Below, in pieces: positions 31,007 through 45,733 of a stretch of DNA of 64,000 nt (positions are counted from its first letter, which is position 1; every line of letters begins with the position of its first letter). The notes below the pieces were generated by a model, which did no database searches, was not told the origin of the DNA, and saw nothing but the letters and a program-made list of their open reading frames with translations. Location: NCBI GenBank assembly GCA_002077065.1, contig NAJO01000028.1, positions 558,001-622,000 of the forward strand. The letters run 5' to 3'. The position numbers and the translations under genes are program-made. This DNA comes from Cryoendolithus antarcticus. Its lineage: Eukaryota; Ascomycota; Dothideomycetes; Cladosporiales; Cladosporiaceae.

Positions 31007-32157
31007 ATGCGAGCGTTTAGTGCATCCCAGCGACTTATTCAACTGAGTCAGTCAATCACTCCTCGCGTGTGGTCAAGCACCCTCACAATGCCTCAAGCAC
31101 CATCAATTGATCGCATCAGCCCGCTCTCGGCCGACGAGGCGAAGTGGACGGAGTTGAGGAAGATAGAGGTACCTCCAATCTCATTGCCGGTCACTCGCAA
31201 ATAGATGCTAATTCGCAATATAGTGGACCGATCAGGTATGATGCTCTCGAAGTCATCTCGCCACTTACATAACCTGACCTCGACCTCAGGATGGCAAACA
31301 ACGCGTCTGGGAAGCCGCAGCACGCAAGACCCGCAAGTCGACTGGCATTGACGCAGTAGCTATCGCACCGATCCTTCACCATCCGTCGAAGCCTGTCAGC
31401 ACGATGATCATCCTGCAGTACCGCCCTCCCGTTGAGGCCTTCTGCGTTGAGTTCCCGGCTGGCTTGATCGACGAAGGCGAGACGCCGGAGGAGGCTGCAG
31501 TCAGGGAGCTGAAGGAGGAGACTGGGTACGAGGGCAAGGTATGTGATCATGCTGATTCATAGAGGTTATGGTCACATGATGCTGACATCGATCTAGGTAA
31601 GTGGGATCAGTCCAGTGCTGAGCTCTCAGCCAGGCATGGCGGCAACGAACATGAAGGTACGTGATATCTGACACGAATTTGCTCGCAGGTCGTCGATTGC
31701 AGTCCGACGATCGTCAGTGACCCGGGATTGACGACGGCGAACATGCAGGTAAGTCCAGATTGTCACTTTCACTATGCAACTACTTGATATTGACAACATC
31801 CAGATGGTCACAGTCGAAGTACATCTCGGCGAGAATGATGAGCAGCCGGAGCAGCATCTTGAAGCTGGCGAGCACATTGAACGAATCATTGTGCCGTTGA
31901 GCGAGCTGTACGACAAGCTACAAGGTACGTGATCCCCTGTCCTCCAGCTTCTGCTCCAAGGTCAATCGGAGCCCGACGGGAGTCCAACCACCTAACCAAT
32001 TGCCAGCTCTCTCGAAGGAGAAGGGCAAGATCCTGGATGCCCGGTAAGTCAAGATCCTCACTTCTTGGTGGCGATCGATTGTACTGATATGTGCAGGCTG
32101 TACCACTGGGCATTGGGGCTTCACTGGAGCCAGCGTTTGATCGACAGTAAGGAGTGA
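31007..32157 (+). CDS. YSA1: ADP-ribose pyrophosphatase, Nudix hydrolase with alternative exons
   Basis: Hydrolyses ADP-ribose to AMP and ribose-5-phosphate. Exons are 31007-31168, 31224-31235 (12-nt microexon WTDQ), 31290-31538, then either 31597-31656 or 31689-31748, then 31804-31924, 32007-32043 and 32097-32157. With one alternative exon the protein is 233 aa. The Nudix box covers residues 116-138 (GLIDEGET...REL-EE-GY), preceded by VEFPAG. The first 27 residues are basic and hydroxylated, so a mitochondrial presequence is possible; Met28 (31088) would give a cytosolic form. Residues 142-161 come from the alternative exon and correspond to the NUDT5 segment CSP...DPGL. All splice phases agree. 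It is convergent with the thioesterase gene. Confidence 0.9.
31597..31656 (+). other. Alternative exon 4a of the Nudix gene
   Basis: Sixty nt, phase 0 at both ends, encoding VSGISPVLSSQPGMAATNMK. The preceding acceptor is ATCTAG with a GCTGAC branch point; the donor is GTACGT. The exon itself begins GTAAGT, a perfect donor-like hexamer directly after the acceptor AG. The peptide shares 8 of 20 residues with exon 4b and keeps SP, PG and NM. Confidence 0.8.
31689..31748 (+). other. Alternative exon 4b of the Nudix gene
   Basis: Sixty nt, phase 0 at both ends, encoding VVDCSPTIVSDPGLTTANMQ. The acceptor is CTCGCAG with a CTGAC 14 nt from the exon 4a donor; the donor is GTAAGT. This version fits the NUDT5-like consensus (CSP...DPGL) better than 4a. 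Only 32 nt separate it from exon 4a. Confidence 0.85.
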
Positions 32158-32196
32158 GACGTTCGCTGATTGTATGCATGAAGAGTACGCTGCGCA

Positions 32197-32286
32197 GGGC
32201 TACACCAACGACATATATGTTGCGTTCGTGGCCTGGGGTTACAAGTTCGGTGGCGACGCATTGCGCGCCCAAAAGGCAAAGTAGAC
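32197..32286 (+). other. Possible 3' coding exon after the Nudix stop
   Basis: After the TGA at 32155-32157, an open frame with good codon use reads EEYAAQGYTNDIYVAFVAWG, continues with Gly/Ala/Lys-rich residues, and ends at TAG. A donor GTAAGG inside the last exon (32148) and an AAG acceptor would join it in phase, but the intron would be only 37 nt with a weak acceptor. It may be a C-terminal extension, a remnant of a neighbouring gene, or chance. Confidence 0.25.
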
Positions 32287-43846: not shown

Positions 43847-45733
43847 ATGAGCACTTCGGAAGACATCACACGAATGGTCGAGCTCATCGATCTGTGTGAC
43901 GATGGCCAGCTCCCTGACCTCCGCGAATACGTCGAAATCGATGAAGATGACGATGACGACGTGCAATATCTAGGTGAAGCATGTCTGGACGATGGAACGG
44001 ACGCGTCGGACAACACAAGCAGATTTGAGATCGATTCAGTGGTCATTCAAGGAAAAGAGCTGCGTCGTAACGGGACTGCTGAACTGGTCGACGGCGACTT
44101 CATGAGGGTCGAAAGCATGCACGTCGATGTCCACGGTCGCACCCAGCTTCAGGGTAGCCTTCTCCGTCGGACAAAGCACCTTGACGGTATGCTGGACCAG
44201 AAAGTCAATGAACTCTGCCTAATTTCGCAGAGCAAGATTCGCCAGACAGACGCTGTACCGACAACTTACGTCACTATACGCCCTATTGAAGAAGCAGTTG
44301 ACATCCGGGAATGCGTATTCACCAATCAGCCCTTCCCCGCGCACACGTGGCGTCAGCATCTTCCGCATGAGCTGCGTCGCGAAGATTGGCGTGACATCAA
44401 GCGGCTTGCGAGCGAGCAAATGCAGCTCACTTGCCGATGGCGATTCACTCAAGAGATAGATGGGAACAAGGTCATCAGTCAAAGCTTCACGCGCCTCAGC
44501 GAACGGGAAGCAGATGCACAGAAAGGCTGTTCGGATGTTCTACTGTGGCGCAAGTACCGCGGGAAGGACGGTAACGTTGGGACGTCGTCGCCTAGCAAGA
44601 GGAAGCATGGTCCAGCAGATGCAGCACCATTTGCCCAAAAGCGCACGTCGTTACCTCGCTCAGACGCAACGATGATCACGATTGAGGATGACGTCGACGA
44701 GTCAGAGCCAGAGATAGTCCTCGTCAGGCGCAAGTCGACACCAAACAGCACCACAGTCGCCCGTGCTAGGAATAGCGCACCTCCAAAGTCGGCCTATACA
44801 TATGGCGACATCTGTACAGGCGCAGGTGGAATGGCGAGCGGAGCTGTGCAGGCGGGGCTTCGGATGCAGTTCGCACTCGACCATGACCACGATGCGTGTG
44901 AGACTTTAAGGCTCAATTTCAACACCCGCGTACTAGAAGAGGACGTTCACACTTTCTGCACAAAGCTGAAAGTTCGCGGATATCTGCGTGTGGATGTGCT
45001 GCATATCAGCTTTCCGTGCAAGTTCTACTCGCCTGCTCACACCGTCGCGGGGAAAGACGATGAGCACAACGTCGCAACTGGCTACGCCGTCAAGCCGATC
45101 TTTGAGCGCTGCAGACCGAGAGTGGTCACCTTCGAGCAGACATTCGGCATGCTCCGTTCTGCTAATTTACCACACTTCCACGCCTTAGTAAAACAAGCAA
45201 CCGACGCAGGCTACAATGTTCGCTGGAAGCTGATCAATCTCGCCGACTTCGGAAATCCGCATGCTCGAAAACGCCTCATCATAATCGCTTCTTGTCCAGG
45301 CGAGCCCCTGCCTCGCTTCCCTGAGCCAACTCACGGCAGCGGCCCGGGCAAGAAGCCGTACACCACAATTAATCAGGTCCTCTCACGCATTGACTACACG
45401 ACCGTTCCGGCGCACATGCAGCAGTATCTGGAGAAGCGTGGCGCAGAATACGACCCTCACCAGCCCTTAAAGCAAGCGATCACTTGCAGCGGTGGGCTAG
45501 GCAACCTTCACCCAAGTGGGAGACGCAGTTTCATGCCGATTGAACTGGCCGCTTTGCAAACCTTTCGCCTAAGTCATCGTTTCCATGGGACTTACACGAG
45601 CATCAAGATACAGATCGGCAACGCTGTACCATGCGTATTCGGCAAGACCTTCTTCGGGGAGATCGTGGAAGACATGAAAGAGCATGACAAGACTGTAGCA
45701 GAGTACATGCCGCCCGTAGTCGAGCTGGATTGA
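43847..45733 (+). CDS. RID/Masc1-type DNA cytosine-5 methyltransferase homologue
   Basis: Single exon of 628 aa. The N-terminal 270 residues are acidic, then hold a BAH-like region, then a Lys/Arg-rich linker. The catalytic domain starts near 317: motif I YGDICTGAGGMASGA, and motif IV ISFPCKFYSPAHTVAGKDDE with Cys391 as the likely nucleophile. Motif VI reads FEQTFGM in place of the usual ENV, a RID-family trait. Motif VIII is NLADFGNPHARKRLIIIA, and motifs IX-X are QIGNAVP. RID (Neurospora) is required for repeat-induced point mutation; Masc1 (Ascobolus) for premeiotic methylation. The SFPCK in place of PPCQ/PPCR may be a divergent but active form. It is the only DNA-modification gene in the window. 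Confidence 0.88.
   Translation: MSTSEDITRMVELIDLCDDGQLPDLREYVEIDEDDDDDVQYLGEACLDDGTDASDNTSRFEIDSVVIQGKELRRNGTAELVDGDFMRVESMHVDVHGRTQLQGSLLRRTKHLDGMLDQKVNELCLISQSKIRQTDAVPTTYVTIRPIEEAVDIRECVFTNQPFPAHTWRQHLPHELRREDWRDIKRLASEQMQLTCRWRFTQEIDGNKVISQSFTRLSEREADAQKGCSDVLLWRKYRGKDGNVGTSSPSKRKHGPADAAPFAQKRTSLPRSDATMITIEDDVDESEPEIVLVRRKSTPNSTTVARARNSAPPKSAYTYGDICTGAGGMASGAVQAGLRMQFALDHDHDACETLRLNFNTRVLEEDVHTFCTKLKVRGYLRVDVLHISFPCKFYSPAHTVAGKDDEHNVATGYAVKPIFERCRPRVVTFEQTFGMLRSANLPHFHALVKQATDAGYNVRWKLINLADFGNPHARKRLIIIASCPGEPLPRFPEPTHGSGPGKKPYTTINQVLSRIDYTTVPAHMQQYLEKRGAEYDPHQPLKQAITCSGGLGNLHPSGRRSFMPIELAALQTFRLSHRFHGTYTSIKIQIGNAVPCVFGKTFFGEIVEDMKEHDKTVAEYMPPVVELD

Follow-up and report, generated by a model that had tools for sequence, protein, structure and literature searches.

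We analysed a 64,000-nucleotide stretch of the genome of Cryoendolithus antarcticus (contig NAJO01000028.1; hereafter the window), a fungus that belongs to the Cladosporiales. On its plus strand, from 31007 to about 32157, lies a gene for a Nudix hydrolase of the NUDT5/Ysa1 type, made up of seven exons plus one, with exons 4a and 4b sharing one place (Table 1). The public protein P0001 (C. antarcticus B0A48_11888) equals the translation of the window with both 4a and 4b included, except that it starts at the second ATG and has a 37-nt intron close to its C-terminus (32147-32183). The presence of both exons in this annotation is a gene-caller's choice.

Table 1. Features of the Nudix hydrolase gene, in coordinates of the window
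Feature	Position	Strand	Remarks
Exon 1	31007..31168	+	first start codon; MPQAP... begins at another in-frame ATG, the start chosen in P0001
Exon 2	31224..31235	+	12-nt micro-exon coding WTDQ; WTDQ also in P0001
Exon 3	31290..31538	+	Nudix box GLIDEGETPEEAAVRELKEETGY; last codons GGC AAG
Intron 3-4a	31539..31596	+	58 nt (C57: 51 nt)
Branch point of intron 3-4a	31582-31586	+	CTGAC
Donor of intron 3-4a		+	GTATGT in the window, GCGAGT in C57
GTAAGT at first base of 4a	31597..31602	+	right after the acceptor (TAG/GTAAGT); recursive-splice-like; identical in C57
Exon 4a	31597..31656	+	derived X-loop, QPG type
Gap 4a-4b	31657..31688	+	32 nt; 4a donor GTACGT, 4b acceptor GCAG; TGA in frame
Branch point of the gap	31668-31672	+	CTGAC
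Exon 4b	31689..31748	+	X-loop of the common type (DPG)
Intron 4b-5	31749..31803	+	55 nt; branch-like TTGAC 31790-31794; acceptor would serve both isoforms
Exon 5	31804..31924	+	
Exon 6	32007..32043	+	
Exon 7	32097..32157	+	direct reading terminates IDSKE, stop TGA 32155-32157; P0001 leaves the exon at 32146

The micro-exon (31224-31235, WTDQ) has introns of 55 and 54 nt on either side. Past the stop of exon 7, a segment at 32147-32285, (MHEE)YAAQGYTNDIYVAFVAWGYKFGGDALRAQKAK, is kept in a second copy of the gene (described below) with 6 changes in 100 nt and one amino acid change. This tail is reached in P0001 via the 37-nt intron, and the related protein P0076 puts a similar tail onto exon 5; the segment may be an alternative last exon or a small separate ORF. 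Farther along the plus strand, an ORF at 43847-45733 resembles a DNA cytosine methyltransferase, as judged by reading only.

As a first-pass annotation of this DNA had reported, exons 4a and 4b are both exactly 60 nt long and in phase 0, and their peptides, VSGISPVLSSQPGMAATNMK and VVDCSPTIVSDPGLTTANMQ, are identical at 8 of 20 residues. At the nucleotide level, 33 of 60 positions agree. It had also claimed that each exon alone keeps the frame with complete splice sites, and either one does give an open frame with exons 1-3 and 5-7. The gap between them, GTACGTGATATCTGACACGAATTTGCTCGCAG, was correctly described as 32 nt long, with a branch point that should be too close to the donor: the A of its CTGAC lies 14 nt past the first base of the donor and 17 nt ahead of the last base of the acceptor. 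Retention of the gap leads, as announced, to an in-frame stop (GTA CGT GAT ATC TGA). As in a cluster of mutually exclusive exons, the two are adjacent and homologous, of equal length class and phase and each with its own splice sites, and both are maintained as coding in two genome copies and in relatives.

The second copy is a diverged one, found on the minus strand of another contig of the same assembly (C57:225540-226733). Its region is colinear with that of the window (C71), with 34 chained blocks and about 101 kb aligned at 85% identity; the colinear stretches are C71 508001-632000 and C57 178001-318000. Such a pair of colinear, diverged copies is that of a diverged duplicated or hybrid genome, and it is useful for exon finding. 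In the alignment exons are conserved and introns have drifted, with identities of 31/60 in intron 3-4a and 28/55 in intron 4b-5. The gap measures 32 nt in both copies and retains donor, CTGAC and acceptor, 20 of its 32 bases being identical. The frame of the C57 copy is open across exons 1-6, apart from a GC donor after exon 3. This donor (AAG/GCGAGT) outscores only 7% of 38 training donors, and given that its counterpart in the window is GT-type, isoforms could be made in different ratios by the two copies.

Between the two copies, exon 4b shows 4 nt changes of 60 and no change of protein. Exon 4a has changed at 11 of 60 nt but at only 1 of 20 residues (I to V), and one of its Ser codons has been switched between AGC and TCG. 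The dN/dS of 4a is about 0.09. In a neutral simulation (200,000 runs at each of kappa 1, 2, 4 and 8), 11 random changes brought a mean of about 7 amino acid changes, 15-16% of runs would meet a stop, and the probability of one amino acid change at most was 0 to 1.5e-5; in the other two frames of 4a, 9 of 19 residues change. Exon 4a is under purifying selection at the protein level. A decayed 4a is ruled out by the same 11 nucleotide changes with one residue change. Because C57 keeps 19 of 20 residues of 4a over these changes and 4a recurs in relatives, the pair is more than a chance resemblance; it is a real, conserved pair of alternative exons.

Two other candidates were rejected. A paralogous gene in place of an alternative exon disagrees with searches of the genome at protein and DNA level, which scored best candidates only and gave two loci, C71 and C57, each carrying both exons. 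A retained intron with no coding role could account, through intron signals, for the conservation of 4a at positions 1, 2, 14-15 and 20, but leaves that of S5, Q11-P12-G13 and N16-A17 unexplained.

That the joining of 4a to 4b is sterically blocked had earlier only been assumed; measured in the genome's own introns, the block holds. Conserved introns were drawn from the colinear C71 and C57 by donor, CTRAY and YAG in both copies and by coding-like flanks. A strict donor/branch filter was passed by 24 of 213 rows, two of which belong to the Nudix gene (the 32-nt gap itself and a misplaced boundary at 31526-31610) and were left out. All the 22 conserved introns outside the Nudix gene are at least 45 nt long in both copies, and their donor-to-branch distance is at least 33 nt in 43 of 44 cases and 24 nt in one. 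Moreover, we counted, on both strands of 264 kb, how often GTRNGT is paired with CTRAC and a subsequent YAG. Enrichment of such pairs lies at 36-51 nt (45 found vs 9.3 expected; 10, 21, 9 and 5 in successive 4-nt bins vs 2.3 expected), and there is none at 8-35 nt (10 found vs 16.3 expected). Three pairs fall at 12-15 nt: two are the gap in its two copies and the third, GTACGT/CTAAC, lies at another place in C57. The gap thus lies below the spliceable donor-to-branch distance of this genome (14 vs 36-51 nt). The available passages of a study on Aspergillus nidulans state a 42-nt minimum intron and a donor-to-branch distance greater than that from branch to acceptor (PMC6616335), and the gap violates both rules, with 32 nt and with 14 against 17.

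Two 37-nt intron candidates count against the size limit, neither of them secure. One lies at C71:550844-550880, where a GTAGGC 16 nt upstream would extend it to 53 nt; the other is the intron 32147-32183, required by the C-terminus of P0001, while direct reading stops in both copies. The strict filter removed the other candidates shorter than 45 nt (among 61 candidates scoring at least 9). Since donor and branch point of the gap are 14 nt apart, against introns of at least 45 nt and an enrichment at 36-51 nt, joining of 4a to 4b should be blocked, and the mutual exclusivity of the two exons is strongly implied by this geometry.

The measured limits bear directly on the idea that the gap is a true, very short intron and that the enzyme constitutively carries a 20-residue insert, as in P0001. 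Both exons stand together in 8 of the 14 4a-bearing records among the matches listed (P0001 and seven others), and the 37-nt intron in the P0001 annotation tells that gene callers accept such lengths. Against this, the gap is shorter than both the introns and the donor-to-branch distances of the genome and than the minimum given for A. nidulans in the passages available (PMC6616335); human NUDT5 has a single segment, P0018 and P0002 have 4b alone, and the AF2 model of P0001 shows the duplicate as disordered. We regard constitutive inclusion as very improbable.

The product is a member of the NUDT5/Ysa1 type by its Nudix domain and box, the latter being GLIDEGETPEEAAVRELKEETGY where the motif is GX5EX7REUXEEXGU. 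Both isoforms match PF00293 (63.5 and 61.1 bits, cut-off 21.1) and, by sequence, human NUDT5 provides the closest solved structures (E about 1e-46), which agrees with the Nudix ADP-ribose pyrophosphatase named in the first-pass annotation. Its guess of a substrate loop can be narrowed to the X-loop, equivalent to Met132-Ile141 of human NUDT5. In the passages available of one study, a Pro downstream of the Nudix box is described as common to ADP-ribose diphosphatases, selection of the X moiety of Nudix substrates is proposed as the role of the X-loop, and in the E. coli ADP-ribose diphosphatase this loop touches the terminal ribose from each of the two monomers (PMC5389931). This Pro is present at position 12 in 4a and in 4b. 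A NUDT5 docking study lists, in the part available, contacts with Met132, Cys139 and Ile141 and, from the other chain, Pro134 and Leu136 (PMC12081488), which align to segment positions 10, 17, 19, 12 and 14. Exon 4a retains the Pro and the Gly, and the Asp between Met132 and Pro134 becomes Gln. This Asp, numbered 133 by counting from its two neighbours, found no mention in the available passages of PMC5772648 and PMC11089510, and those of PMC10891917 merely list it among fluctuating residues.

A confident model of the 4a-only relative P0023 has a pLDDT of 86.3, with strands at 115-119 and 133-142, and its best PDB match is human NUDT5 (TM 0.79). The AF2 model of P0001, which has both exons, reaches 76.4, and residues 114-130, mostly the 4a copy, fall below 50, as does the C-terminal tail; the low values may partly reflect that just 4 of 42 aligned rows have both copies. 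The 4a loop would likely confer a changed substrate preference (X-moiety, terminal sugar) or changed kinetics.

Relatives were drawn from 158 listed proteins (the best 120 of 1257 matches plus full lists of 48 and 27), in 147 of which the end of the Nudix box is present; these were used for counts. Sorted by pattern, these 147 among the matches listed divide into 6 with 4a only, 8 with both, 128 of 4b-type and 5 with neither, although one of the last, P0126, is really 4b-type with Cys. Without any selection on Pro, position 12 of the first segment is Pro in 142 of the 147 listed rows; of the remaining five, four are skip records and one is P0152, in which DPG is shifted by one. The residue before Pro in these 142 listed rows is Gln in 14, Asp in 126 and Asn in 2, a count that avoids the condition of an earlier sort by this very residue, whose 16/16 vs 137/137 came about by construction. 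All eight double records listed have the Gln copy ahead of the Asp copy. Position 2 is Ser, Cys or Arg in 14 of 14 Gln rows and in 3 of 128 others among the matches listed (P0019, P0103 and P0108). The rows are related and therefore such counts are not independent. Among the nine rows with both exons (the window being identical to P0001), the 4b segments are on average 93% alike and the 4a segments 63%; by this comparison 4a is the faster, derived copy.

In a tree of 48 rows built with the segment left out, all 14 4a proteins fall within one block of 33 rows, whose support (82/85) is under the tool's star level. The block contains Cladosporiales, Mycosphaerellales, Coniosporium uncinatum, a Gomphillus MAG, and 4b-only rows from Xylariaceae and Whalleya. 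Exon 4a recurs in two orders and its label is scattered within the block, with 9 label changes along the tree, of which starred branches force at least 6; annotation choice and lineage loss would both produce this. The Gomphillus MAG (P0030), Lecanoromycetes by name, stands among Dothideomycete rows and is therefore probably a contaminant, and it was left out as evidence of deep spread. The Xylariaceae and Whalleya rows (P0021 and P0028), which from the classification of their names we take to be Xylariales, have a 4b-type enzyme and are likewise placed among Dothideomycete rows; horizontal transfer or contamination is possible.

Two of the records from short contigs in which every exon is joined have 4b only: P0018 (1216-bp contig), placed in the tree with Hortaea, and P0002 (longest 1124 bp), which is Cladosporium-like by its place in the tree. 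What is seemingly one gene of Hortaea has three annotations, with both exons (P0024), with 4a only (P0036) and with 4b only (P0018). The transcript-like P0035 (905-bp contig) has neither. A mutually exclusive pair, as first proposed, is the best reading, but P0035 omits both, so that exactly one exon per mRNA may not always hold. Of the six 4a-only records, five are products of gene callers (P0003, P0023, P0030, P0036 and P0076) and one is an ORF through an intron (P0128). No transcript-like record with 4a alone was present among the matches listed (best 120 of 1257; all 48; all 27), and one could be hidden by the clustering at 90% identity because the two isoforms of one species share a cluster. 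Transcript-like records with 4b or neither, and none with 4a alone among the matches listed, together with the faster evolution of 4a (11 against 4 changes of 60), are what one would expect if 4a were a conserved regulatory or decoy exon, seldom included, and 4b the sole functional form of the protein. Selection on 4a acts on amino acids, however, and QPG is kept across genera, so we consider a decoy quite unlikely.

The exon arrangement in relatives was inferred from proteins, not DNA. In a search for DNA of fungal relatives, the best 80 of 297 genome-contig matches were distant relatives named as bacterial or archaeal, and the viral contigs searched gave 11 loci, likewise distant relatives. 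P0122, P0072 and P0128 look like ORFs through later introns and should therefore report the order of the DNA. In P0122 and P0072, from ORF-called contigs, exons 3, 4a and 4b run uninterrupted while later introns are unspliced; the copies are flush and in frame, and therefore both could be translated together there. Exon 4a recurs in relatives, but the architecture is not common to all of them, the two exons being unseparated in these two records. In P0128, exon 3 and 4a are followed by 40 residues unlike the family and then by exon 5. Back-translated, this stretch is compatible at 20 of 20 codons with VLDCSPTIVSDPGLTTANMQ in frame +1, from 4 nt after 4a; 20,000 shuffles reached at most 13 codons and three control tails 9, 12 and 9. 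In P0128, 4b thus seems to lie in a different frame from 4a, with 4 nt between them. These 4 nt must read GTNG, and therefore the donor of 4a would overlap with the acceptor of 4b. The separations between 4a and 4b inferred from these records and the window, 0, 4 and 32 nt, would all be shorter than the introns seen in the C. antarcticus genome.

Uninterrupted reading through exons 3, 4a and 4b in P0122 and P0072, and the donor-compatible codon pair that opens 4a in 14 of 14 database rows among the matches listed, are also what would be seen if 4a were an exitron, a coding intron of retained-intron type, with isoforms of 4b alone and of 4a plus 4b. In the window and in C57, by contrast, 4a is flanked by an acceptor and a donor of its own, retention of the gap leads to a stop, and the 4-nt spacer of P0128 would shift the frame. 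For C. antarcticus we hold an exitron to be improbable; for Teratosphaeriaceae this reading may still be right.

Exon 4a begins with a perfect donor consensus, GTAAGT, in the window and in C57, and among the matches listed codons 1-2 (GTN, then Ser, Cys or Arg) are donor-compatible with +5 G in 14 of 14 4a rows and 3 of 128 others. The exon 3/4a junction left by removal of the intron reads AAG/GTAAGT and outscores all 38 donors in the genome's matrix; the donors of exon 3 and 4b likewise exceed all 38, and that of 4a exceeds 94%. A recursive or stwintron-like site is present and strong at 31597; its use is a candidate one. Removal of intron 3-4a would create the AAG/GTAAGT donor, which could take the 4b acceptor and give the 4b isoform in two steps, whereas the 4a isoform would come from splicing of the 4a donor to exon 5; exon 3 could just as well be spliced directly to 4b. 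In genes with exon 3 and 4a flush, the GTN-Ser/Cys/Arg start would be a donor removing 4a.

Because 14 of 14 starts are donor-compatible and P0128 appears to have a 4-nt spacing, the pair may go back to a tandem duplication that doubled as an intron. A 60-nt duplication of the X-loop exon (GT...CTNAC...CAG) would have left an upstream copy removable by splicing, whose second codon was then fixed as part of a donor. Exclusivity would have been gained separately, in P0128 through a 4-nt spacer with overlapping 4a donor and 4b acceptor, and in Cryoendolithus through the 32-nt gap and an upstream intron, the choice between AAG/GTAAGT and the 4a donor setting the loop. We offer this history, of a 4a that was coding exon and spliceable intron at once and became, through exclusivity, part of a splice-switched substrate loop, as a tentative one, somewhat short of even odds.

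Based on our data, the gene encodes an ADP-sugar pyrophosphatase of the NUDT5/Ysa1 type whose X-loop comes from one of two alternative exons that are never joined, likely with altered preference or kinetics, a reading to which we assign a probability of roughly 0.8. Exon 3 to 4b to 5 would give the common DPG loop and exon 3 to 4a to 5 the derived QPG loop; 4a and 4b would be unjoinable, since the intron to be removed is 32 nt long, with 14 nt from donor to branch point, and a retained gap would bring a stop. We infer that both isoforms are made in C. antarcticus and that specificity changes.

In the passages available, mutually exclusive exons are reported as almost absent in several fungi, and in Schizophyllum commune they occur in 171 genes, primarily in untranslated regions (PMC5034255). 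The first-pass annotation knew of no description for the Nudix family, and likewise no fungal Nudix gene with mutually exclusive exons was found described among the literature matches listed, as far as their available text goes. The one listed match on both subjects deals with an oomycete effector and plant splicing, and the available main text of a Cladosporium fulvum splicing study makes no mention of Nudix (PMC11694984). The present case is a coding one, kept in both genome copies and in two orders, and it swaps a loop proposed for substrate choice in Nudix enzymes. It raises two testable questions: whether splicing retunes an ADP-ribose-cleaving enzyme in fungi, and whether a tandem exon duplication can go from removable intron to alternative exon while coding. 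Additionally, 4a and 4b are a natural experiment on the X-loop, with Asp exchanged for Gln next to a conserved Pro.

Several known systems share part of these features. Like human NUDT5 and yeast Ysa1 (row P0155), the enzyme has the Nudix box, the fold and an X-loop with DPG; unlike them, with a single X-loop in the sequences compared, it has in 4a a Gln for the Asp before the conserved Pro. According to the available passages, exons 4a and 4b of vertebrate OGDH are kept mutually exclusive by branch points near the 5' splice site, as tested on RNA (PMC7969005). Both pairs are homologous alternative exons with a branch point too near the upstream donor (25-41 nt in OGDH, 14 in C. antarcticus), but OGDH has distant branch points in a longer intron, whereas C. 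antarcticus has a 32-nt gap and an upstream exon that opens with a donor-like sequence. In Pezizomycotina stwintrons with exon skipping, as presented in the part available, removal of an intron makes a junction donor that takes the next acceptor (PMC6616335), as might happen here; the new donor would differ in being the exon 3/4a junction (AAG/GTAAGT), and the skipped exon in having a homologous substitute. Finally, intron gain by tandem genomic duplication likewise links a tandem duplication to a new intron, in the passages available (PMC4974935), whereas the C. antarcticus duplicate remains coding and under selection.
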